Shown here: positions 2,961 through 25,546 of the stretch, in pieces
Numbering within the stretch: position 1 is the first letter of the stretch
Layout of the letters: each line of letters opens with the position of its first letter
Assembly (NCBI GenBank): GCA_024229395.1
Contig: JAAESM010000045.1
Span: 62,001-126,000, forward strand
Direction of reading: 5' to 3'
DNA length: 64,000 bases
From: Planctomycetota bacterium
Lineage (GTDB): Bacteria > Planctomycetota > UBA1135
The notes under the pieces: model-generated
What the model saw: only the letters and a program-made list of their open reading frames with translations
Databases searched by the model: none
Told to the model about the DNA's origin: nothing
Position numbers and translations under genes: made by a program

Positions 2961-3932
2961 AAAGCGAATCGTTGCGCGCACGCTGGCTGGATCGTTCATC
3001 AAGAAAGTATGAATGTTGTCCACCACCAAGTGCTCGGCTTCGCCTCTCAGGTGGGTCTCTTCCACGCGCACCACGCCATCATTGGGGCCATCCAACCAAG
3101 GGTTGAAGGCGCCACCGGAACCGCGTGCGCCGGCAATGATTAGCATGGGAATCTGTGGCACATAGACCGTAGCCATGGCTTGCGGAGTGAGTGCCAAACC
3201 GGTCTCACCGAAGATCCAACTGTAGGCCGTATAGTCCTCGACCGCCTGAGCAAAGGAGGAGCCTTGGTTCGGTGGTGCCAACATGACCACGCGCTCGGCT
3301 TGGATGTGGTTGCGCCAATATCCATGCGGGTGCTCGGCAGAGGCACGTCGCGGCGCCAACAACTCACGCACGACGACGCCCCCCAAGCTATGGGTGACGA
3401 AACTGATCTGATCGTAGCCTTGCAGATTGTTCAGGACCGCTTCGAACTGGACCACATGATTGCTGATCGAACGACGCGTGCTCGGATAAGAGACGGCCGC
3501 TACATCCCAATCCTGACCGGCCAGCGCGGCTTGCATATCACTCAAAGCCCGACGTGATCGCCCCATGCCATGCAACAGCATGACCAGATGACGTTTGTCC
3601 GCGCGCTCGACCTGTGGCGCCTTGCGCTCGAACTCGGCCAAGCAAGCTTCCCAGCTGCCCCAAGCCTGACGTCGATCATTCGGATCCAAGACCCGGTGAT
3701 GCCCAGTCAAGACATTCTCTTGGATGCGCCAACCCTCGCGCCAGCGCCAATCAGCCCAAAACTGCTTACCGCCAAAGGTAGGTAGTTGCAGGTTCAGGCG
3801 CGACTTCGGGGCGTCGGCCGAATCGCTGAGAGGGTCGTGTGCGGTCATGGGCTGAGCACAAGAGTATGCCACTACAAACGGCAAGGCGGCAAGGCAGTGT
3901 TTGATGCCGCCCAGATGGGGCAAGCGCTTCAT
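2898..3932 (-). CDS. Exported alpha/beta-hydrolase (lipase/esterase-like)
   Basis: 344 residues starting at MKRLPHLGG. The ATG (3932-3930) overlaps the permease stop in an ATGA, which is why I prefer it to the longer frame beginning at 3977. The N-terminus looks like a signal peptide ending around VAYSC, possibly a lipobox. The hydrolase core shows the strand HLVMLLHGMGRS with an oxyanion HGMG, the nucleophile elbow THSLGG, and a late DGPNDGVV / NIHTFL stretch that could supply Asp and His. This is the pattern of PGAP1-like and triacylglycerol-lipase-like enzymes. It is translationally coupled to a Lol-type ABC transporter, suggesting a role in envelope lipid or lipoprotein handling, which is inference. 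It is convergent with, and overlaps, the ABM gene. Confidence 0.82.
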   Translation of the reverse strand: MKRLPHLGGIKHCLAALPFVVAYSCAQPMTAHDPLSDSADAPKSRLNLQLPTFGGKQFWADWRWREGWRIQENVLTGHHRVLDPNDRRQAWGSWEACLAEFERKAPQVERADKRHLVMLLHGMGRSRRALSDMQAALAGQDWDVAAVSYPSTRRSISNHVVQFEAVLNNLQGYDQISFVTHSLGGVVVRELLAPRRASAEHPHGYWRNHIQAERVVMLAPPNQGSSFAQAVEDYTAYSWIFGETGLALTPQAMATVYVPQIPMLIIAGARGSGGAFNPWLDGPNDGVVRVEETHLRGEAEHLVVDNIHTFLMNDPASVRATIRFLAGGSGLVDAQVRPANDEVR

Positions 3933-5916: not shown

Positions 5917-7243
5917 AGCGCAATGCCTTGACTGGAGAGAACAACGCCGCGCGGATGGCGGGGACTGCAGTGAACAGGATGCCGACCAGGAAAGTGGCCA
6001 AGGTCAGGCCGAGTGCCTTTTCTGAATCCCATTGCGCTGGCAAGCTGTCGACCACATAGAGGTTTGGATCGAAGACGCGCACTTGGAAATTCCCGTAGAC
6101 CCAATCCTCGATGGCGACGCGATTGGCGACCAGATAACTGGCGCCGGCGTAGCCCAAAACGCAACCCAGTGCACTGGCGATGGCACCGGTACTGAGCAAC
6201 AGCAAGCCACGGCGTAACGGACTGAAGCCGATCGCGGCGAGCACACCCAGGTCGCGGATCTTCTCGCGCACCAAGGCAGAGATGGTGGTGAACAGACCGA
6301 ATGCGGCGACCACCACGATGAAGAACAACACCAAGGTCACGATGCGTCGTTCATTCTCGATCGCACTCAGAAGCGAACCGGAACGTTCTTCCCAAGTCTG
6401 CAAGGAACCTCCTTGATCACCACCAACCGACGGTAGCTTGGCGTTGGCAAGTGCAGCAAGCACGGCGCTCTTGCCTTGCTCATGACTGACTCCTTCCTTC
6501 AACTGGATCAAGATCTCCGTGAAGTCGGCGGCCTTCGATCCGAGCAAGTCATAGTGCAAGCTGTTGCGCCCGGTGCGACGCATGTAGACACGGTCCAATG
6601 CGGCGCGGAAGTCGCGCCCGGCGTAGGTGGCGGCGACTTGAACTTCGGTGTTGTGCGGCCGCAGTTCCTCACCAGCTGGTGGCAGAATCGCTGGCAGCGA
6701 ACCGAGTTTCATGACGGGAGTGCGGCGGTCGGAGAATCCACCCAACAACTTCATGAAGTCATCACTGACCACCACGCCTGGCGGGGCGAAGATGTCGTCG
6801 CCAACCGAAAAGGGATCCTTGAGTGCTTCAAGCCCGTCAATCGGTATCACCTTGCCGTCGGCAAGATTTTGACCGAAATCATTGACCTGCATTTCCAGTT
6901 CCGGATCGATGCCAATGATCTGGATGCCGCTGTACTTATTGGCGACCTTGGCATAGTCCTGTGAGAACATGGCATAGGCCACCAGATGCGGCGCGAAGGC
7001 CTGGATCTCATCCACGTCAGCAAGTGCGGTCTGGTAATCCTTCCAGCGTGGCAACTCGGTGGTGACCGCCGGGATCAGCAGCAGGTCGCTGAGCGGCCCG
7101 CGGATCGATGCACGGTTCATGTCGATCAGGCCGTTCATCACTGCTAGCACCGACAACAGCGCCATCAAACCCACCGCCACACCAAGTACAGCCAAGAGCT
7201 GGACCGGGCGTTTGAACAGGTAGGAGAGGGCGAGACGCGCCAA
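5909..7243 (-). CDS. ABC transporter permease, FtsX/LolC-LolE type (TTG start)
   Basis: 444-residue partner of the permease at 3929-5146, with the same plan: helix 1 at about 12-37 (PVQLLAVLGVAVGLMALLSV), a periplasmic domain to about 300, and three C-terminal helices (VTLVLFFIVVVAAFGLFTTI; a Gly/Ala-rich pair; LGLTLATFLVGILFTAVPAI). The only start that keeps the first helix is a TTG at 7243-7241. It lacks a Shine-Dalgarno sequence but has TAAACT ending exactly 6 nt upstream, predicting a leaderless TTG-initiated message. It heads the four-gene operon permease-ATPase-permease-hydrolase. Whether it is the LolC or LolE equivalent cannot be told from sequence alone. Confidence 0.88.
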   Translation of the reverse strand: MARLALSYLFKRPVQLLAVLGVAVGLMALLSVLAVMNGLIDMNRASIRGPLSDLLLIPAVTTELPRWKDYQTALADVDEIQAFAPHLVAYAMFSQDYAKVANKYSGIQIIGIDPELEMQVNDFGQNLADGKVIPIDGLEALKDPFSVGDDIFAPPGVVVSDDFMKLLGGFSDRRTPVMKLGSLPAILPPAGEELRPHNTEVQVAATYAGRDFRAALDRVYMRRTGRNSLHYDLLGSKAADFTEILIQLKEGVSHEQGKSAVLAALANAKLPSVGGDQGGSLQTWEERSGSLLSAIENERRIVTLVLFFIVVVAAFGLFTTISALVREKIRDLGVLAAIGFSPLRRGLLLLSTGAIASALGCVLGYAGASYLVANRVAIEDWVYGNFQVRVFDPNLYVVDSLPAQWDSEKALGLTLATFLVGILFTAVPAIRAALFSPVKALRYE

Positions 7244-7249
7244 GCTAGG

Positions 7250-7255
7250 AGTTTA
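7250..7255 (-). promoter_or_regulatory. -10 box TAAACT, 6 nt before TTG start at 7243
   Basis: On the minus strand TAAACT is followed by CCTAGC and then the TTG start of the first permease. The spacing is identical to other heads in this window and supports a leaderless transcript for the Lol-like operon. Confidence 0.5.
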
Positions 7256-7313
7256 GTCGGCCAGCGAGGCTGATGCGACGCTTAGCCGGACTGCTTAAGA
7301 AAGCAGCGCTTGC

Positions 7314-8873
7314 TCAGCAGGCCGAGTCGTCAGCTTGAGACTCGTTGGCATCTTCATTGGTTGCGCCGAAGTCCTTTTCAGGACGCATATGCGGGAACAG
7401 TAGGACATCGCGGATGGTGTCCTTGCCGAGCAGCACCATAATCAAACGATCGACACCAATGCCACAGCCACCTGCAGGTGGTAGACCGTATGCCAAGGCA
7501 CGCACGTAATCCAGATCCACCTGGTTGGGGGATTCGGGATCTTTATCCACGACCTGCTCCTCAAACTTGGCAAGTTGCAGCTGCGGATCGTTCAGCTCAC
7601 TGAAAGCGTTGGCCAGTTCCATGCCGCCTAAGAAGAACTCGAAACGACCAGCCCATTCTGGGTTGTCAGCCAATGGCTTGGCCAGTGGACAGATCGCGGC
7701 TGGGTAATCATGCACGAAGATCGGGCCACGCAGTTTCGGCTCGACCAATTCTTCGAACAGATCGTTGACTGCCTTCCACCAGGCGTACTCGGAGTCGTCA
7801 GCGACTTCGACGCCATGCTCCTTCATCTTGGCGGGCAAGGCCTCGCGATCGGTGGCCTTGCAGCCGACGTACTCTTCGAAGGCATCCGCATAAGCCACGC
7901 GTGCGAACGGTGGCGTGAGGTTAAACTCCTCTTCACGGAAGGTGGTCTTCAAGGAACCGTCTTCCTGTTCACAACCAGCAGCGCGTGCGCCGGCCACGAC
8001 CAACTGCTCAGTGAGTTCCATCATGCCGAATACATCCGAGTAGGCCTCGTAGAACTCGACCATGGTGAACTCGGGATTGTGGCGCATCGACAAGCCTTCA
8101 TTGCGGAAGACGCGCGCGAACTCAAAGACACGTTCCATGCCGCCGACCACTAGGCGCTTCAGGTAAAGCTCCGGTGCAATGCGCAGGAACAACTGCATGT
8201 CGAGCGCATTATGGTGGGTGGAAAACGGCTTGGCGTTGGCACCACCGTAGATCGGGTGCAGCACTGGCGTATCGACCTCGGTGTAGGCGCGTTGCAGGAA
8301 CACCTCCCTCATGGCCTGGATGATGGCCGAACGCTTGAAGAAGCCATCGCGGACTTCTTGATTGGCGAACAGATCGACATAACGACGTCGGGCGCGCAGT
8401 TCGGCATCGGCTAAGCCATGGAACTTCTCCGGTGGGTTCTCCAGCGCCTTGGTCAAGATGCGGAAACGCGTACCGAATACGGTGGGCTCACCGACCTTGG
8501 TCTTGCTGAGTTCACCCTCGACGGCAACGATGTCGCCCAAGTTCATCTGCTTCAGTTGCGCGAACTCCTCAGGCACGACCAAGTCTTTCTGCAGGCAGGC
8601 CTGGATACGACCGCTTTGATCGCAGACATCGAGGAAGGCCAACTTGCCGTAACCGCGACGGCCAAGCACGCGGCCATAGATCAGCACGGTCTCGCCTTGA
8701 CGTTCCTCGGATTTATCGAGGATGTCGGTGGCCAGTTCGCGCTCAGGGCCATCCGCGCCAGTGGGGGCGCCAGCAATTGGGGCAAATCCGGTCTGGGCCG
8801 GGTATGGGTCGGCGCCGGAGGCCTTTAGATCCTCCAGTTTCTGCAGCCGGTCGGGATGGAAGAAGTCAGCCAT
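7314..8873 (-). CDS. lysS: Lysyl-tRNA synthetase, class II
   Basis: 519-residue cytoplasmic enzyme charging tRNA-Lys. The N-terminal OB-fold anticodon-binding domain (about 50-170) carries GRVLGRRGYGKLAFLDV. The class II catalytic domain follows with motif 2, FEFARVFRNEGLSMRHNPEF, and motif 3, GCGIGVDRLIMVLLG. Length is normal for bacterial LysRS-II, with a short extension (about 20 aa) at each end. It lies 60 nt downstream of tRNA-Ala in the same direction, so the two are probably co-transcribed. The ATG at 8873 gives the usual start position before the OB fold. Confidence 0.97.
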   Translation of the reverse strand: MADFFHPDRLQKLEDLKASGADPYPAQTGFAPIAGAPTGADGPERELATDILDKSEERQGETVLIYGRVLGRRGYGKLAFLDVCDQSGRIQACLQKDLVVPEEFAQLKQMNLGDIVAVEGELSKTKVGEPTVFGTRFRILTKALENPPEKFHGLADAELRARRRYVDLFANQEVRDGFFKRSAIIQAMREVFLQRAYTEVDTPVLHPIYGGANAKPFSTHHNALDMQLFLRIAPELYLKRLVVGGMERVFEFARVFRNEGLSMRHNPEFTMVEFYEAYSDVFGMMELTEQLVVAGARAAGCEQEDGSLKTTFREEEFNLTPPFARVAYADAFEEYVGCKATDREALPAKMKEHGVEVADDSEYAWWKAVNDLFEELVEPKLRGPIFVHDYPAAICPLAKPLADNPEWAGRFEFFLGGMELANAFSELNDPQLQLAKFEEQVVDKDPESPNQVDLDYVRALAYGLPPAGGCGIGVDRLIMVLLGKDTIRDVLLFPHMRPEKDFGATNEDANESQADDSAC

Positions 8874-16863: not shown

Positions 16864-19839
16864 CTACTGAATCGTCACTTGAACCCAGTTCGTACTATGC
16901 CCAGCCTCTGCAGCCTGAACCCAAACTGTCCGACCGGCGTAGGCTGGCGGAATGAACTGAGCCAAGGTGGCGTTGCCGGCGGCGTCGGCCAAGCGGGAAC
17001 CTGCCAAGTTCGGTGACTCGATACTAAAGGTTGTGTTCAGCGCAGGCGTTTCCGAAAGCGCAGTACCGATGGTGCTGTAAGCGAAGTAGACGCGACCGTT
17101 CGGCGTTGCACCAGTAACTGATATGTTGTTCGCCGAACCAGCGTTGAGCGTGAACGGCGCCAGCAGGAATGGGTTATCGCGCATCACGAACTTGGCAACC
17201 CAAGTGCGCCACGAAGAGGTTCCACCGATGTTGTACTCATGGTGGCCCCAGAAGGTACCGACGATTCCCGGATCGACTTGGGTGCCGCTGTAGTCTCCCC
17301 AACGCCCAGAAGTGTGCGCGTTGTTGGAAGTCTGCACGACTTGGCCAGGACGCATGGTGCCAGAGGGATCCGTGGCAGCGCGAATCGAACGGCCCATGGA
17401 GATGTACTCATTCGAAGCCGAACGTGCGTAGGTGATCGCCACGTTCGAATCAGCGTCGACGTGGATACTTGGGAAGTAGGTGTAGATGCCACTGCCCAAA
17501 TCGATCTCGCCATCTTGCGCCAAGCTTGGCGAACCGGAGGTTGGCCAGTTGTTCATATCGATCTCATACCAACGCACACGCGAGCGCGAGCTGTTGACAT
17601 GGTGCACCGCCCACAAGGAACCGTTGCGTTGCGCGCAGCTCCAGAAGCGTGGCTCGAACAAGTACGGACGCGAAGAGGAACCCTTCTGCGGTGGATGCGC
17701 AGGGTAGCGGTAAGTCGGCACGGTCAGCGTGGCGACGGTGCGGTTGTATGCCGTGAATGGGTTACTGATGGCGTGCAGCTTGACCGTGGTGTTGGAGCTG
17801 TATTCGGTCGACTGCATGATGTAAAGGTTCGGGTCGTTGTCATAAACGACCGGAACGCCCATCGATTGTTGACCACTACCGGTGATCAACTCATGCGTGG
17901 TCACGGCACTTCCACCGTTCAGCACCGAGGTCTTGTCCAGGATGTAGACCAAGTACTTATCCGGGCCGAAGAAGTCGGCAGTCAGCAGGATCGAATCAGG
18001 ACCGACCGCCATGTTGGGGGAGTCGATGTCGCCACCAGAGATCGTCGTCACGTCGAGGCGATATTTGTACCAATCGTTCTTGTCGCCAGGCGAGCTGTCC
18101 TTCGAGATCGCGAACAGGAAGTAGCTGCGACCATTGGTGCGCTCACAAGCCATGGCCAGGAAACGCTGTGCATGTGGATCCCAGGTACATTCCGGATCGA
18201 ACACGAAGCTACCGGCATTCAGCGAACCCCAGAAGCCGAAGCTGTTCTCGATCTCATCGCTCCAAACAAGGTTGCCGGACTTCGACAGGTTCGAGATGTT
18301 GCCGTTGGTCATGACGATGATGTCACTTGGGCCGACGGCAATCTCTGGGTCTGGAGGAGTCCAACCAGTGCCAGGAACACCTTCGAAACCGAAGTCTCCA
18401 CTGGCGGCCATGGTGGTCATCAGGCGTTGTTGAGGAACCCAGTTCGGATCCCAGATTGGTGGGTTAGCGGCGAGCATATCAGCATCGGAGATGCTTGGTG
18501 CCGCAGCGTTGGCGGAGCCAGGACGCTGTTGCTGAGCAATGGTCTTACCCGCTGGCATCAGTACTGCGAGGTTGGCTGCGGAACCATCGCCATGACCGCT
18601 GTTGCCGTCGAAGCTGGCGATCAAGCGGCCGTCCTTGCTTGTGGCCAGGCGCGTAGCCGCACTGGTGCGTGCCATCAGGCCATTGTCGCTCAGGAGAATG
18701 GCTTGTTTGTCCAAGCACTTCGCTTGTGCGTCGAAACGCTTGGCCAAGACCAAACGCTCTTCCTCTTGCGAGGTCTCGCCGCTGGTAGGCAACCAACGAT
18801 CACTGTTGTAAGCCACGGTAAAACCGCCGTCGTTGCTAGCGCAGATCGCCACGCCAGACTTCCAACCGTCTTGTGGGCTGGCAAGAACCTGCACTTCCTG
18901 GAGTGCCACGGCCTTGGCGTCAAAACTTTGGGTCACGACTTCATAACCGTTTGCACAGCTACGCATCCAAGCAGCAACCAAAGTGCCATTGGCGGTAGTG
19001 GTCACGACAGGTTCGACGTGATCGCGTGTGGCATCGTTGACCAATTCGAAAGCGGAACCTTGTGGCTGACCGTCTCCATTCAAGAACATGGCCATCACGG
19101 TGGTGCGATTCTCATCCGCCACATCGCGTGTCCAAGTCAAGAAGAACTGCCCATCGGCCAAGCTGCACAAGGCAGGGCGTCGGTCGCCGGCGGATTCGCT
19201 GAGAAGAATCTCGCAACCCGTGTTGGAATCGGCGTTCAGCAAACGTGCGCGCAAACCGGCAACCGTAGTACCATCGGCTGCATCAAAGCGGCTAGCCCAA
19301 ACGGCCAGCATGTCGTCTTTTGGATTGGCGGCCAAGACCACTTGGCTTTGATCGCCATCGCGGTTCTGGTTGACGGCGAACTCGCTACCGAAAGGCATAC
19401 CGTTGGCATCGAAGCGACGCGCGACCAGACCTGCACCGGAACCATCTTGCCCGAAGGACTCCCAGGCGATCCACAAACTGGAATCCGCCGCAAAGGCAGC
19501 GGCAGGTTGCCACTGGGCTTGCGGTAGGTATTCGTTGATATGAAGCTCAGAGGTGAGCGGTTGTCCCTGGTCGTCGAAGAGGCGTGCGAACACACCAAAG
19601 GTGCCGCGCTCTTGACGCTTACTGTTCCACACCAGGGCAGTGCGGCCATCTTCGGCCACGGCCAAGCTGGAGTCACCTTGGCTGCTGGATGTGAAAACGT
19701 TGCCCTGCACTTGAAGCAATTGCTGAGCAGGGGAACTGGTAGACAAGGATGAGGAATCAGCTTGCGGAGCACTGCAGGAGGCCAGTAGGGCCGCCACAGC
19801 GAAACCGTGAAGCAGTTTTTTTGAGCTGGAAGGGTGCAT
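16864..19839 (-). CDS. Large secreted beta-propeller lipoprotein (991 aa) of unknown function
   Basis: The N-terminus is a lipoprotein signal with lipobox LLASC (Cys about 22), followed by a Ser-rich linker. Residues about 45-430 hold repeated propeller blades of the type ...RRFDANGMPFGSEFAVNQN..., each about 50-60 aa. Residues about 490-880 form a second domain with repeated VGPDSILL / AVGPSDIIVMTNGN motifs and many aromatic residues. The last 100 residues (ending TVWVQAAEAGHSTNWVQVTIQ) resemble the C-terminal beta-sandwich of other exported proteins in this window. No catalytic motif is recognised. It is divergent from the M36-like protease gene with only 51 nt between starts. Confidence 0.8.
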   Translation of the reverse strand: MHPSSSKKLLHGFAVAALLASCSAPQADSSSLSTSSPAQQLLQVQGNVFTSSSQGDSSLAVAEDGRTALVWNSKRQERGTFGVFARLFDDQGQPLTSELHINEYLPQAQWQPAAAFAADSSLWIAWESFGQDGSGAGLVARRFDANGMPFGSEFAVNQNRDGDQSQVVLAANPKDDMLAVWASRFDAADGTTVAGLRARLLNADSNTGCEILLSESAGDRRPALCSLADGQFFLTWTRDVADENRTTVMAMFLNGDGQPQGSAFELVNDATRDHVEPVVTTTANGTLVAAWMRSCANGYEVVTQSFDAKAVALQEVQVLASPQDGWKSGVAICASNDGGFTVAYNSDRWLPTSGETSQEEERLVLAKRFDAQAKCLDKQAILLSDNGLMARTSAATRLATSKDGRLIASFDGNSGHGDGSAANLAVLMPAGKTIAQQQRPGSANAAAPSISDADMLAANPPIWDPNWVPQQRLMTTMAASGDFGFEGVPGTGWTPPDPEIAVGPSDIIVMTNGNISNLSKSGNLVWSDEIENSFGFWGSLNAGSFVFDPECTWDPHAQRFLAMACERTNGRSYFLFAISKDSSPGDKNDWYKYRLDVTTISGGDIDSPNMAVGPDSILLTADFFGPDKYLVYILDKTSVLNGGSAVTTHELITGSGQQSMGVPVVYDNDPNLYIMQSTEYSSNTTVKLHAISNPFTAYNRTVATLTVPTYRYPAHPPQKGSSSRPYLFEPRFWSCAQRNGSLWAVHHVNSSRSRVRWYEIDMNNWPTSGSPSLAQDGEIDLGSGIYTYFPSIHVDADSNVAITYARSASNEYISMGRSIRAATDPSGTMRPGQVVQTSNNAHTSGRWGDYSGTQVDPGIVGTFWGHHEYNIGGTSSWRTWVAKFVMRDNPFLLAPFTLNAGSANNISVTGATPNGRVYFAYSTIGTALSETPALNTTFSIESPNLAGSRLADAAGNATLAQFIPPAYAGRTVWVQAAEAGHSTNWVQVTIQ

Positions 19840-19877
19840 TCGAAGGGTGGTTGGGGGTATTTTCGGGAGAAATCCCT

Positions 19878-19883
19878 TATAAC
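19878..19883 (+). promoter_or_regulatory. -10 box TATAAC, 7 nt before ATG 19891
   Basis: TATAAC (or TTATAA one base earlier) precedes the ATG of the M36-like protease by 7 nt, with no Shine-Dalgarno. It sits in the 51-nt gap between two divergent starts, so both promoters must share or overlap their upstream parts. Confidence 0.5.
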
Positions 19884-19890
19884 AGATGAT

Positions 19891-21783
19891 ATGGCGCGGT
19901 CACCCAACGTTCCCATCATTCCCGGCCTATTTCTTGCTCTGAGCCCGCTGGCATTAGCGCAACAGACCCTAAGCCCCCCTCAGCCGGTCCTGCCGCAGAC
20001 CGTGGCTGCTGAGATTCAACTATTGGAAGATCATCTGCTGCGTTTGGGAGCTTGGCCGCTGCAGACCGAGCCACAGCAGATTGCCGCCACCAGCCTTGGT
20101 GGCCCCTTCCAATTGTGGAAAGAGCAAGCGCCGAGTTTGATCAACCTGCGCCGCACAATGGTCGAGCGTCACATGGATGGCTATCCGCTGACCGATGAAG
20201 TCGTGCGCGTGAACTGGCTTAGCGATGGCACGGTGTTGGTGCACGGTGCGGTCAGTCGTGCGCGTACTTGGAGTGGCAGCAATCAGATCGGCGGAACTTA
20301 CGCTGGTGCCTTGGCCAAACAGATCTTCACGGCGGAGTGGCCGGTGGAGATTCATGCAAGCCGACTGGAGATTCTGCCTTTGGCCGACGGCGCCCGTCTT
20401 TGCCATCGTGTTGACTTGACCAGCAGTGCTTCGACTTCGATCGCTTATCGCGTTTGGGTTGATGCGGAACATGGTCACCTTTGGCAGGTCAAGAACCGCA
20501 GCATTCATAGCACCGGTCAAGCCTCGGTGTTCATGCCGAATCCGGTCGAGACTTTGGACAACCCGAACCTCACTGACCAAAACGATTCGGGAACCGCAAT
20601 TCCTGCCGCAGCTTACTTCCCGGTCACTCTCGAGGACCTTGATGGCAGCGGCTACATGACTGGCACCTGGGCAACCACCGCGCCCACACCGAACCGTAGC
20701 TTTCGTGCCAATCTTGACTTCACCCATAACCGTCAAGGCCGCATCTTCGAGGAAACCCTTTCCTATTACCACGTCACCACCATGCAGCACTACTTGCAGG
20801 GCTTGGGGTTGACCGCGCGCCAAAGCGTGCAGCCAATCAATGTGGTGGACTTGCTGTTCGGCTTCCCATATGCCAACGCTTCCTATAATCCCAACACCGG
20901 CGTGATCTCCTTCGGTACACGCGGCGTGGACTTCGCCGAAGACGCCGACGTCGTCATCCACGAATATGGCCACGCTATTCATGATGATGTGCAGGGCGGG
21001 ATTGGTAACGGTGAGAATGGCGCCATGTCGGAAGGTTACGGCGATTGGGTGGCGGCAGTTCATTCCAACGATGCCCTCGTCGGTGAATGGGTTGGGACTA
21101 CCCTTGGTGGCGGAAGCGGTTTTCCCGCCGTGCGCCGCGTCGATGGCATGAAGCATTACCCCGAGGACATCGTCGGCCTCGTCCATGATGATGGCGAGAT
21201 TTGGTCGTCGACCTTGTGGGAGATTGGCTTGATGATTGGCCCCGATGCCGTCACCCAATTGGTGATTGAAGCGATGTCGACCATGACCAGTGGCACCAGC
21301 ATGTCACGTGCTGGCGAGTTGCTGGTGATTGCCGAAAGCTTGCTGACAAGTGGTAGCAACCTGCCTTACGTGGCGGGTCCGCTGGCACGCACGGGCTTAA
21401 TCAACCTGCCTCCCGGAACTCCAATGCTTGAGGCAAGTCGTCGCGGTCTACGCGCTGGCGACGTCCTGACTTTCCGCCTGTCCTCAGCCACACACGCCGG
21501 CAGCAACTTCCAGACGGTGTTGTCGCAGATTGCTAGTCCGTCTGTGAGTGGCCCGCCGTTCAACACCACTTTCGACATTGGAACCGAGATGTTCGGCTGG
21601 TCCTTGTCGATCCAGGCCTTGAGTGGTCAACTCGACGCCAACGGTAAGTCCGTGTTCCAACTGACCATTCCGCCAGGTTTGACTTGGAAGGACCATTACT
21701 TTGCTCAGGCGATGATCCTCGATGGCAGTCAGCAAGCGATTGCTCTGAGCCCGCCGATTGCTTTCCGCGCCGAGCGTCATTAA
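19891..21783 (+). CDS. Secreted zinc metallopeptidase, M36/fungalysin-like
   Basis: 630 residues from the ATG at 19891; the longer frame from 19834 overlaps the divergent gene. The signal peptide ends near LALAQQ. A propeptide-like region (about 30-250) precedes the catalytic domain. Zinc ligands His357 and His361 with Glu358 lie in VVIHEYGHAIHDD, and the third ligand, Glu381, lies in SEGYGDWVA. This spacing is that of gluzincins, closest to the fungalysin family. The last 110 residues carry the beta-sandwich pattern (FDIGTEMFGW, then GQLDANGKSVFQLTIPPGL and YFAQAMIL) found on other exported proteins here. It probably degrades extracellular protein. Confidence 0.82.
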   Translation: MARSPNVPIIPGLFLALSPLALAQQTLSPPQPVLPQTVAAEIQLLEDHLLRLGAWPLQTEPQQIAATSLGGPFQLWKEQAPSLINLRRTMVERHMDGYPLTDEVVRVNWLSDGTVLVHGAVSRARTWSGSNQIGGTYAGALAKQIFTAEWPVEIHASRLEILPLADGARLCHRVDLTSSASTSIAYRVWVDAEHGHLWQVKNRSIHSTGQASVFMPNPVETLDNPNLTDQNDSGTAIPAAAYFPVTLEDLDGSGYMTGTWATTAPTPNRSFRANLDFTHNRQGRIFEETLSYYHVTTMQHYLQGLGLTARQSVQPINVVDLLFGFPYANASYNPNTGVISFGTRGVDFAEDADVVIHEYGHAIHDDVQGGIGNGENGAMSEGYGDWVAAVHSNDALVGEWVGTTLGGGSGFPAVRRVDGMKHYPEDIVGLVHDDGEIWSSTLWEIGLMIGPDAVTQLVIEAMSTMTSGTSMSRAGELLVIAESLLTSGSNLPYVAGPLARTGLINLPPGTPMLEASRRGLRAGDVLTFRLSSATHAGSNFQTVLSQIASPSVSGPPFNTTFDIGTEMFGWSLSIQALSGQLDANGKSVFQLTIPPGLTWKDHYFAQAMILDGSQQAIALSPPIAFRAERH

Positions 21784-21880: not shown

Positions 21881-23329
21881 ATGGACAGCCTACGGGACTG
21901 GATAAAAGTGCTTGAAGATGCAGGCGAACTCACGCGAATCAGCGCCGAGGTCGACCCGCACCTTGAGATCTCCGAAATCACCGACCGCGTCAGTAAGGAA
22001 CAGGGCACCAGTAACAAGGCCTTGTTGTTCGAGAACGTCAAAGGCAGTGCCATGCCGGTGTTCATCAACGGTTTCGGCTCGCGCGAACGTTGCGCGATCT
22101 CGTTGGGCAAGGCCAGCATCGATGAGCATGCACAGCGCTTGCGCGATGTGCTCGATCAAGCACCGCCGGAAGGCATTCTGGATAAGCTGAAGATGCTGCC
22201 AAAGTTGGCGAGCATGGCCAAGTGGATGCCGAAGAAGGTCGGCACTGCGCCATGTCAAGAAGTGGTCATCCAAGGCGATGATGTCGACCTGAGCAAGCTG
22301 CCGGTCTTGACTACCTGGCCCGATGATGCAGGTCCATTCGTGACCTTCCCGCTATGCGTCACTCAAGACCCAGACAATGGCCGACGCAACCTCGGTACTT
22401 ATCGCCTGCAAGTGATGAGCAAGACCACGACTGGCTTTCACAGTCATCTGCATAAGGATGCGCGCCGGCATTTGGGGAAAGCTGCCGAGCGTGGCGAAAG
22501 GATTCCGGTCGCGGTAGTGATCGGTGCTGATCCTTACACTTGTTTCGCCAGCGTGATCCCAGCACCTCCGGATCTGGATGAACTACTGATCGCCGGTTTC
22601 CTGCGCGACAAGGGCGTGCCTTTAGTGAAGTGCAAGACCGTGCCGCTGGAAGTGCCAGCCACCGCCGAGATCGTGCTCGAAGGTTGGGTGGATCCGAAGG
22701 AGTTGGTGACCGAGGGGCCATTTGGTGACCACACCGGCTTCTATAGTCTTGCCGATTTGTATCCGATCTTCCATGTTGAGTGCATCACGCACCGCAAGGA
22801 CCCGATCTACCACACGACCTTGGTCGGCCGTCCACCGCAAGAAGATTGCTGGATGACCGAGGGCATCGAGCGTTTGCTGTTGCCGATTCTGCAGAAGCAA
22901 TTCCCCGAGGTGTTGGATTACCGTATGCCTTTTGAAGGCGTAGCGCATAACTTGATGTACCTGCGTATCAAGAAGTCTTATCCCGGACACGCGCGCAAGA
23001 TCATGAACGCGATCTGGGGCTTGGGCCAAGCCATGTTCACCAAAGTGATCGTGGTGGTGGATGAAGATGTCGACATCCACAGCGACTCTGAGGTCGCATG
23101 GCAGGTGTTGAATCACATCGATCCGCAGCGCGACTTGGAGTTCACCCTAGGCCCAATCGAAGTACTCGATCATGCCAGCCGCGCCGCTTGTTACGGCTCC
23201 AAGGTCGGTATTGATGCCACGCGTAAATGGCCCGAGGAGGGCTTCACGCGCGATTGGCCGGAAGCGATCGTGATGTCTCCCGAGGTCAAGCAGTCTGTGG
23301 ATAAGCGCTGGAAGGAATTTGGTTTTTAA
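21881..23329 (+). CDS. UbiD-family (prenylated-FMN-dependent) decarboxylase
   Basis: 482-residue cytoplasmic enzyme. The family uses prenylated FMN, supplied by UbiX, for reversible decarboxylation of aromatic or alpha,beta-unsaturated acids. Visible features are the N-terminal MDSLRDWIKVLEDAGELTRI, a cofactor-binding core with TYRLQVMSKTTTGFHSHLH, and the acidic catalytic region VTEGPFGDHTGFYS, which holds the conserved Glu and metal/phosphate ligands of the family. Length fits UbiD/menaquinone-type members (480-500). No ubiX or quinone gene is nearby, so the substrate (a quinone precursor or another aromatic acid) is not set by context. It is expressed from its own short promoter. Confidence 0.9.
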   Translation: MDSLRDWIKVLEDAGELTRISAEVDPHLEISEITDRVSKEQGTSNKALLFENVKGSAMPVFINGFGSRERCAISLGKASIDEHAQRLRDVLDQAPPEGILDKLKMLPKLASMAKWMPKKVGTAPCQEVVIQGDDVDLSKLPVLTTWPDDAGPFVTFPLCVTQDPDNGRRNLGTYRLQVMSKTTTGFHSHLHKDARRHLGKAAERGERIPVAVVIGADPYTCFASVIPAPPDLDELLIAGFLRDKGVPLVKCKTVPLEVPATAEIVLEGWVDPKELVTEGPFGDHTGFYSLADLYPIFHVECITHRKDPIYHTTLVGRPPQEDCWMTEGIERLLLPILQKQFPEVLDYRMPFEGVAHNLMYLRIKKSYPGHARKIMNAIWGLGQAMFTKVIVVVDEDVDIHSDSEVAWQVLNHIDPQRDLEFTLGPIEVLDHASRAACYGSKVGIDATRKWPEEGFTRDWPEAIVMSPEVKQSVDKRWKEFGF

Positions 23330-23448
23330 ACCAGCAGCTTTCTAGCGAGTTTCGTGGCCAATCGAAGTTTAAGTGATAGCTTAGGTGGGTTCGGTCCTTG
23401 GCAGGACCAAGGGATGAATTTCCATTTCTTCAGCTTTTGGTGTTTGCC

Positions 23449-24970
23449 ATGAAACGGTTCGCGTTTGTCATTTCCTGTGCGCTGATTCACTTCAGCGCTG
23501 CCACTGCAGCTCAGGTTGGCGGTGAAGAAATCCTTCATCACCAGTTCCTGGGAGGCGGCGGATTCAATGTCCAACTGGGTTTTGTCGTGGACAAGGCTGG
23601 TGATGTCAATGGCGATGGCTTCGCGGACATCCTCATCGGTTGCAAGTACGAAGATGTTGGAGGATTGAGTGACGTCGGAGTTGCCTTTGTCTTCTCCGGT
23701 GCGGATGGCTCTCAGCTTTACCGATTCGAGGGCGCCAATCGATCCGACTATCTTGGCAGTTCTCTTGCAGGGGGCAGGTGATATCAATAGCGATGGCTTT
23801 GATGATTTCCTCATCGGAGCCCCCGGTTACGATGTTGGCACCCTGGTCAATGGTGCCGTTTATGTGTACTCGGGTGTAGATGGATCGCTACTGCATCTAC
23901 TCCTCGGGCATGCAACTGTGGGCCATTCCGCGGCGGGCTTCGCTCATTCCATCGATGGGCAGGCGATGTGGATAGCGATGGCTATGCGGACATCATCGTT
24001 GGTGCTCCTGGAGACCTTTCCGTTGGATCCGCCACCGTGTTATCGGGAGCTACTGGCGCAGAGATCGCTAAATACCTTGGCGGGGGGGGGGTGACCAACT
24101 CCAGTTTCGGCTATTGCGTTTCCGGCGCAGGTGACGTCAATCACGATGGCTATGCCGACGTCATCATTGGAGCTCCCATGCATAGTCCCGGTGGCGGACG
24201 GGAATTCGCCGGTGAAGTTAGGGTTTATTCGGGTGCCACGAATTCCCTACTTTATTCCTACACCGGCCCGTTCCAAGGATTTGGCCTTGGCGTCGCGGTA
24301 TCCGGAGCAGGCGATGTGAACAAGGATGGCTTTGGTGATTTCCGGTTCGTTTGCTATTCCACGGACAACACCGGTTAGGAGATTCTGGGTGCGGTATTCC
24401 TTCATTCTGGCGTTGATGGCACTTTGCTGCATCGCTTTGAGGACGGACTTGAGAATACTCACTATGGCTATGCCGTTTCGGATGCGGGCGATGTGGACAA
24501 CGACGGCCGTGATGACATCATCGTTGGTGCGCCATGGTCTAGCTCCTCATGGGACGGTGCGGCTATTCCATCCCTTCCTCGACGTCGATGGCTACACCGT
24601 CTCGGCAGTCGGAGGAGGATCGATTCAGCTTGACCTAGACTTCCCGTTGAATGCGGCAGGCTTCGACTACAAAACCCTGATTACGATGAGCGGCACAGGT
24701 GGCATGCTTTTGGGCATTCGCATTCCATTGGCGGAGGATGTCTTGGTCCATCACACCTTCAAAGGCAACTACCCATTCGCTTCCTGCTCGAATCTGCAAG
24801 GTAGCTTGGATGCTTCCGGTGATGCCACAGCAAGCATCTCGATAGCACCATCGGAGTTGTCGACTTCCCTGATTGGTCGTACTTTCCACATTGCAGTTGT
24901 GAGTAGCCTCAACAGGGCAATGGCCGCGGACTACAGTTCGGTCGCGATTCCAATTGAAATCACGCCGTGA
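23449..24970 (+). pseudogene. FG-GAP (integrin alpha-type) repeat secreted protein, broken by frameshifts
   Basis: It starts with a clear signal peptide (MKRFAFVISCALIHFSAATA). It then shows successive FG-GAP units with the Ca-binding D-x-N-x-D-G-x-x-D pattern: DVNGDGFADILIG, DINSDGFDDFLIG, DSDGYADIIVG, DVNHDGYADVIIG, DVNKDGFGD, DVDNDGRDDIIVG. The units lie in different frames. Breaks are near a G5 run (23770-23774), a G3 run (23957-23959) and about 24545-24570, plus an in-frame TAG at 24376-24378. A G10 tract (24082-24091) is read in frame. The C-terminal beta-sandwich (GSLDASGDATASISIAPSE) resembles that of other exported proteins here. It may be decay, phase variation or homopolymer sequencing error. 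Confidence 0.8.
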
Positions 24971-24993
24971 GCATGATTGTGAAGATACAATTG

Positions 24994-25015
24994 ATTAGGT
25001 CTGCAATGACCTAAT
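24994..25015. repeat. 7-bp inverted repeat directly before ATG 25016 (operator-like)
   Basis: ATTAGGT-8 nt-ACCTAAT, with the right arm touching the start codon. TACAAT at 24986-24991 could be the -10 box, placing the transcription start inside the left arm. It may be a repressor site or a start-masking hairpin in the RNA. Confidence 0.45.
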
Positions 25016-25546
25016 ATGGCCGCATCCTCCTCAAATGATGGCTCGCGTCAACTCGCACGTCGGCCCTTGAAGCCGTGGCAGTTGCGTTTGATTCTGAATT
25101 GGTTTCCGCCACTTCTCTTTCAGCGCATCAAGGTCCTGGCGATCAGCGAGGACTTCCTGCATGTGCATATGCGCGCGCGCAAGTCGATTTGGAACCGCAA
25201 CCTGAACGGCACCATTTTCGGCGGCACCATCTCGACCGCCGCCGATCCAGTCTTCCCGGTGATGTATTGGCAGGCCTTGGAGCATCGTGGTCTTCCGTTG
25301 CAATCCTGGCTGATGGCGGCCAATGCGCGCTTCCTGAAACCGGGTGCTACGCATTTGGATTTTCACTTTCGCCTCAGCGCAGAAGACATCGATAGTGCCG
25401 CCGAGGAATTGCAGCGCCGCGGCAAGGCGGTGCGCACGCACACCGCCCAAGCGTTGGACCGAGATGGCCAAGTTTGTGCGGAATTCGAGTTAGTTACTTA
25501 CTTGCGTCTGCTGCGCGCTGGCGACAAGGATTTGAGTGGATTCTAG
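25016..25546 (+). CDS. DUF4442 hot-dog-fold thioesterase-like protein
   Basis: 176 residues of the DUF4442/PaaI-like hot-dog superfamily, whose members are thought to act on acyl-CoA thioesters or bind acyl chains. Typical pieces are RLILNWFPPLLFQRIKV, the strand LHVHMRARKSIWNRNLNGT, the helix with GGTISTAADPVFPVMYW, and a C-terminal strand set ending EFELVTYLRLL. Length matches the family (150-180). It is a single gene between the broken FG-GAP gene and the M28 protease, preceded by an inverted repeat that abuts its ATG. Substrate is unknown. Confidence 0.82.
   Translation: MAASSSNDGSRQLARRPLKPWQLRLILNWFPPLLFQRIKVLAISEDFLHVHMRARKSIWNRNLNGTIFGGTISTAADPVFPVMYWQALEHRGLPLQSWLMAANARFLKPGATHLDFHFRLSAEDIDSAAEELQRRGKAVRTHTAQALDRDGQVCAEFELVTYLRLLRAGDKDLSGF

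Follow-up and report, generated by a model that had tools for sequence, protein, structure and literature searches.

A broken FG-GAP gene between ubiD and DUF4442

The locus lies in a 64,000-nucleotide stretch of planctomycete DNA, hereafter the window, from a 3.13-Mb draft genome of 93 contigs that is 87% complete. Here a gene for an FG-GAP repeat protein, interrupted at several points, sits between a ubiD-family gene, whose nearest named relatives are draft genomes of uncultured Planctomycetota, and a DUF4442 gene. Its parts and neighbors, in window coordinates, are as follows.

21881–23329, + strand: ubiD-family gene, intact, the anchor upstream of the FG-GAP locus
23449–24970, + strand: FG-GAP repeat protein gene, very probably a pseudogene; the complete remnant, from a signal-peptide-like start through six FG-GAP repeats to a C-terminal beta-sandwich domain
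23449–23781, + strand: first open piece, with the signal-peptide-like start and repeat 1, then a stop (110 aa; FG-GAP E 1.3e-5)
23760–23960, + strand: repeat 2 stretch in the +1 frame, between frame changes 1 and 2 (bounds approximate)
24082–24091, + strand: G10 tract, both flanks in one frame
24376–24378, + strand: TAG in the ATG frame, between repeats 5 and 6
24540–24970, + strand: third frame change (near 24540–24570) and C-terminal domain in the +1 frame, with its stop at 24968–24970
25016–25546, + strand: DUF4442 gene, intact, the downstream anchor

The calcium-loop motifs of the six repeats begin at 23602, 23780, 23965, 24133, 24313 and 24490, a spacing of 168–185 bases that corresponds to ~60 residues per repeat, and the C-terminal domain adds ~130 residues. 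When the five fragments of the gene were scanned separately in a profile search, four exceeded the cut-off of PF01839 (FG-GAP), the fifth being the C-terminal piece; with repeats above the Pfam cut-off, this is an FG-GAP repeat protein gene. Its product was probably secreted, and the signal-peptide-like start was judged by eye. The first-pass annotation, made by a model from the letters alone, had called the gene adhesin-like: the FG-GAP repeats are borne out by the profile matches, and the adhesion label is a loose one.

Three frame changes and a nonsense codon separate the parts of this gene. The frame that starts with the ATG at 23449 holds motifs 1, 3, 4, 5 and 6, and the +1 frame holds motif 2 and the C-terminal domain, which places one frame change between motifs 1 and 2, one between motifs 2 and 3, and one after motif 6, ahead of the tail. 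Read from the ATG, translation stops at 23781 after 110 residues. These motif frames and the TAG agree with the three frame changes and one in-frame stop counted in the first pass. Homologues in the same genome have stop-to-stop frames of 445–607 residues; relative to them the reading frame is disrupted, and therefore translation by the standard code cannot yield a complete repeat protein. Repeat 5 may carry a further local lesion, because the usual hydrophobic-Gly-Ala-Pro stretch is absent after its loop. Despite at least four lesions, all six loop motifs are well kept.

The G10 tract is the longest homopolymer of the window, the next-longest run of G or C being six bases. Shuffling the window gives an expectation of 0.14 for such runs, and at least one appeared in 9 of 100 shuffles, so the tract by itself is only mildly unusual. 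Across the whole genome G10 or C10 occurs in five places: three adjoin or separate genes, one lies in the FG-GAP gene, and one lies in an intact ORF that resembles, by eye, DNA polymerase III alpha. The first pass had placed the tract in frame, as we also find, and since its two flanks share one reading frame, the tract does not count among the breaks. No G run longer than five lies near the frame changes. The tract is incidental, a homopolymer in what is very probably a dead gene, and it may have grown after inactivation.

Several features of the surroundings deserve mention. A short hairpin falls within the 45 bases that separate the FG-GAP gene from DUF4442 (24971–25015); 4 of 200 shuffles fold equally well. 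Upstream, the divergent 5' ends of two large ORFs, 16864–19839 (−) and 19834–21783 (+), share a few bases. One of the pair matches M36 peptidase; for the other, of 991 aa, Pfam and NCBIfam gave no match at E up to 0.01. Rfam and tRNA scans returned a single tRNA-Ala, distant from the FG-GAP gene.

The same site in a sister species and other relatives

A congener of the host species (G005) carries the same ubiD and DUF4442 neighbors at a locus colinear with the window, with protein identities of 96% for UbiD and 86% for DUF4442. Almost the entire FG-GAP gene is missing there, as two features show.

23379–24808, + strand: span absent from the sister species, 1,430 bp, replaced by 21 unmatched bases
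24809–24970, + strand: sole part of the gene kept in the sister species, the last 162 bp, 83% identical

The deletion in the sister removed the start region, all repeats and part of the C-terminal domain. The first-pass annotation had proposed comparing the locus in related strains as a check; the comparison made here, with a sister species, favors decay. The 45 bases just 3' of the gene differ between the two species at only three positions.

We placed this pair in a wider set by comparing 15 of the 26 planctomycete ubiD loci found, the 11 distant ones (L105–L108 and L110–L116) being left aside. An FG-GAP tail between ubiD and DUF4442 is present at only one of the 15 (L091; JASMKM010000006.1, Arabian9_MAG_16), which corresponds to the sister species. 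At five loci (L093, L094, L099, L100 and L109) DUF4442 directly follows ubiD, within about 60 bases or overlapping it; five others have an M28 gene directly after ubiD and no DUF4442; three have neither gene. The remaining locus (L092) has a 1.4-kb spacer between ubiD and DUF4442, within which an open MscS-like gene runs on the opposite strand (6534–7844 of that locus). Because ubiD is followed directly by DUF4442 in five more distant relatives, the FG-GAP gene was probably inserted in this lineage, to judge from gene order. The MscS-like gene lies at the same junction, which therefore has taken more than one insertion. In a nucleotide search of 41 genomes, matches to the gene other than the window itself and the sister's tail were short only. 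The most economical account has the gene inserted before the host species and its sister diverged and lost afterwards in both.

The surviving tail also bears on when the gene was lost. Between the window and the sister, positions 24809–24970 differ at 4, 6 and 17 sites for codon positions 1, 2 and 3 respectively, with 54 sites each; 17 of the 27 differences thus fall at third positions (Fisher p = 0.0005 against positions 1 and 2). The ratio of changes at positions 1–2 to those at position 3 is 0.29, the same value as in the neighboring secreted-type M36 protease gene (0.29), and compares with 0.23 for both M28 and DUF4442, 0.10 for ubiD and 0.12 for a gene that, by eye, we take to be ThiC. 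This test covers 162 bp only and reads a joint pattern in which the two branches are not separated. Over the whole divergence of the two species the tail shows constraint, and either inactivation was recent or the test is too short. Because the differences fall mostly at third codon positions, selection would have acted on the gene for most of the time since the two species separated, with inactivation coming recently, as far as a small sample with pooled branches suggests.

Accounts of the broken frame

Taken together, these observations make it very probable that the FG-GAP gene is a pseudogene in stepwise decay. The case is supported by three frame changes and one stop within 1.5 kb, and by the sister species, which retains only the last 162 bp of the same gene. 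Decay was among the options raised in the first pass, and the sister supports it independently.

A different reading is that the organism carries an intact gene and that the breaks exist only in the assembled sequence, produced by sequencing or assembly errors or by merging mixed strains into one consensus. The draft is fragmented, repeats of ~60 residues could confuse assembly, and the motifs on either side of each break are well preserved, as sequencing errors would also leave them. We assessed this by comparing the window with the sister's contig C6, on which 21 of the 22 ORFs of at least 100 residues match the window, over 26.6 kb. None of these 21 is split in the window. Two are partly covered: one extends past the window start, and the other is short of only 34 stop-to-stop residues at its beginning. 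Conversely, of the 52 window ORFs, 21 had matches in C6, and five were flagged: the FG-GAP tail, one ORF that runs past the end of the contig, one without its first 22 residues, one with no match exceeding 50% identity, and one in which the first 51 residues match in a second frame, a stretch taken to lie before the start codon, at the upstream end of the stop-to-stop ORF. If errors were spread evenly over the 26.6 kb and the gene, the chance that all three frame changes would fall in the gene is 1.6e-4. Since the breaks are local and this probability is low, the evidence speaks against general error, and poor quality across the window is rejected; the first pass, too, had seen intact neighbors and no general poor quality. 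Error specific to this gene is less constrained. Against it, the site hardest to read, G10, is in frame, no G run longer than five lies near the breaks, and the sister independently lost nearly the whole gene. With 21 homologous genes around it unbroken, we consider an error improbable, here departing from the first-pass annotation, which had kept that option.

Phase variation was likewise among the options of the first pass; as considered here, slippage in G10 or in some other short run of G would turn the surface protein on and off. A ten-base G tract in a repeat-protein gene invites this view, and the part of the literature on Campylobacter used here describes genes switched by G/C tracts (PMC8355987); the window gene resembles these in having a long tract in the gene of a probably exported protein, and differs in that its frame is set by other lesions rather than by the tract. 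The flanks of G10 share one frame, so that any length change other than a multiple of three adds a break, and the three frame changes and the TAG persist at every tract length. No length of the tract toggles this gene between open and broken. Nor does the genome show signs of a tract-based switching repertoire, since G10 and C10 are rare and mostly outside genes. With the tract in frame, the breaks elsewhere and the other lesions remaining, G10 phase variation is rejected as a candidate, and switching in any G run is extremely unlikely.

We give equally little credence to useful expression of the fragments, whether the 110 residues serve as a short secreted protein or programmed frameshifting yields the full one. 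The first piece does retain one repeat and what looks by eye like the start of a signal peptide-bearing protein. A full product, however, needs all three frame changes and the stop to be bypassed, and the sister has deleted the start region and all repeats. No second copy of the frame-change sites was found in which conservation of a programmed shift could be seen.

Decay by small lesions and deletion has precedents. In the part of the Salmonella study drawn on here (Kuo and Ochman 2010, PMC2916853), pseudogenes are removed fast by deletion, and close relatives can differ in the lesions of the same gene. The window gene resembles them in its short frame-breaking indels, premature stop and conserved flanks, and in the different lesions of one gene, including a deletion, in close relatives. 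It is unlike most of them in carrying at least four lesions, since 346 of the 378 Salmonella pseudogenes have a single lesion and multi-lesion cases are rare, which counts somewhat against decay; it also comes from an uncultured planctomycete with only a draft genome. A survey of prokaryotic frame transitions (PMC3711429), in the portion consulted, uses cluster features to tell pseudogenes from phase variation, recoding and error, and treats a singleton with a broken frame as a likely indel mutation or error. Set against that survey, the FG-GAP case fits decay.

Stepwise decay would have run as follows. In the ancestor of the host species and its sister, a member of a large secreted FG-GAP family, absent from this site elsewhere, would have inserted between ubiD and DUF4442. 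For most of the time since the two species split, the gene would have been translated, with purifying selection acting on it, before becoming dispensable. The host lineage presumably acquired a nonsense codon and several short indels that break the frame, and in the sister a 1.4-kb deletion would have removed the start region and every repeat and cut into the C-terminal domain. Observed are the lesions, the position common to both species, the sister deletion and the codon pattern; from them we infer the order of events, the loss of function and the lack of a useful product.

In the two sister species the locus very probably presents successive stages in the loss of one secreted-protein gene, and in more distant relatives the site is empty. 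What a tempting reading made of the G tract, a switch, falls away, and the remainder is routine: the ordinary birth and death of an expanded secreted-protein family, with what is very probably a pseudogene caught between inactivation and deletion. A broader proposal, which we regard as speculative and rather doubtful, is that the ubiD–DUF4442 junction is a landing site of repeated gene gain and loss in the genus, and that the family sharing the tail turns over fast by birth and death and so stores surface variation between species. It rests on the FG-GAP gene in two species and the MscS-like gene in a third.

The gene family and its C-terminal domain

Used as a protein query, the C-terminal piece found 14 places in its own genome; 26 of 31 genomes contained matches, up to 62 of them in one relative. 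Four of the 14 places (L074, L076, L077 and L078) have repeats in frame within the open frames of 445 to 607 residues noted above, and these relatives combine several repeats with the same C-terminal domain. The window gene shares PF01839 matches and this domain with its open relatives; its broken frame sets it apart from intact FG-GAP repeat proteins (PF01839, PF13517). In one relative (G002), 12 of the 13 matches listed, of 16, have frames of more than 560 residues. A recent donor copy was considered and rejected, the nearest other tails in the genome being only 48–51% identical.

Three more family members in the host genome look like remnants, judged by their reading frames. One (L073) has an early in-frame stop between the signal-peptide-like start and the repeats, and another (L075) is a tail without repeats. 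The third (L083, at 3392–3823 of that locus, on contig C74 of the host genome, G000) is a 143-residue open frame that joins an FG-GAP-like start to a C-terminal part, probably an internal deletion that kept the frame by chance. Loss within this family therefore extends beyond the window gene. Literature searches for FG-GAP pseudogenes in Planctomycetes, and for FG-GAP, Planctomycetes, C-terminal domain and secreted, found no reports.

The C-terminal domain (24560–24967) has no Pfam or NCBIfam match. Across its 14 places in the host genome it is common to unrelated, probably secreted proteins, FG-GAP proteins among them; other proteins with the same tail are arylsulfotransferase-like or resemble glycosyl hydrolase 18. 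It may be this lineage's sorting or surface-attachment domain. AlphaFold models it as a confident beta-sandwich (mean pLDDT 93.7), and against the PDB the model finds only weak Ig-like matches (best E 6.7e-4, TM about 0.5).
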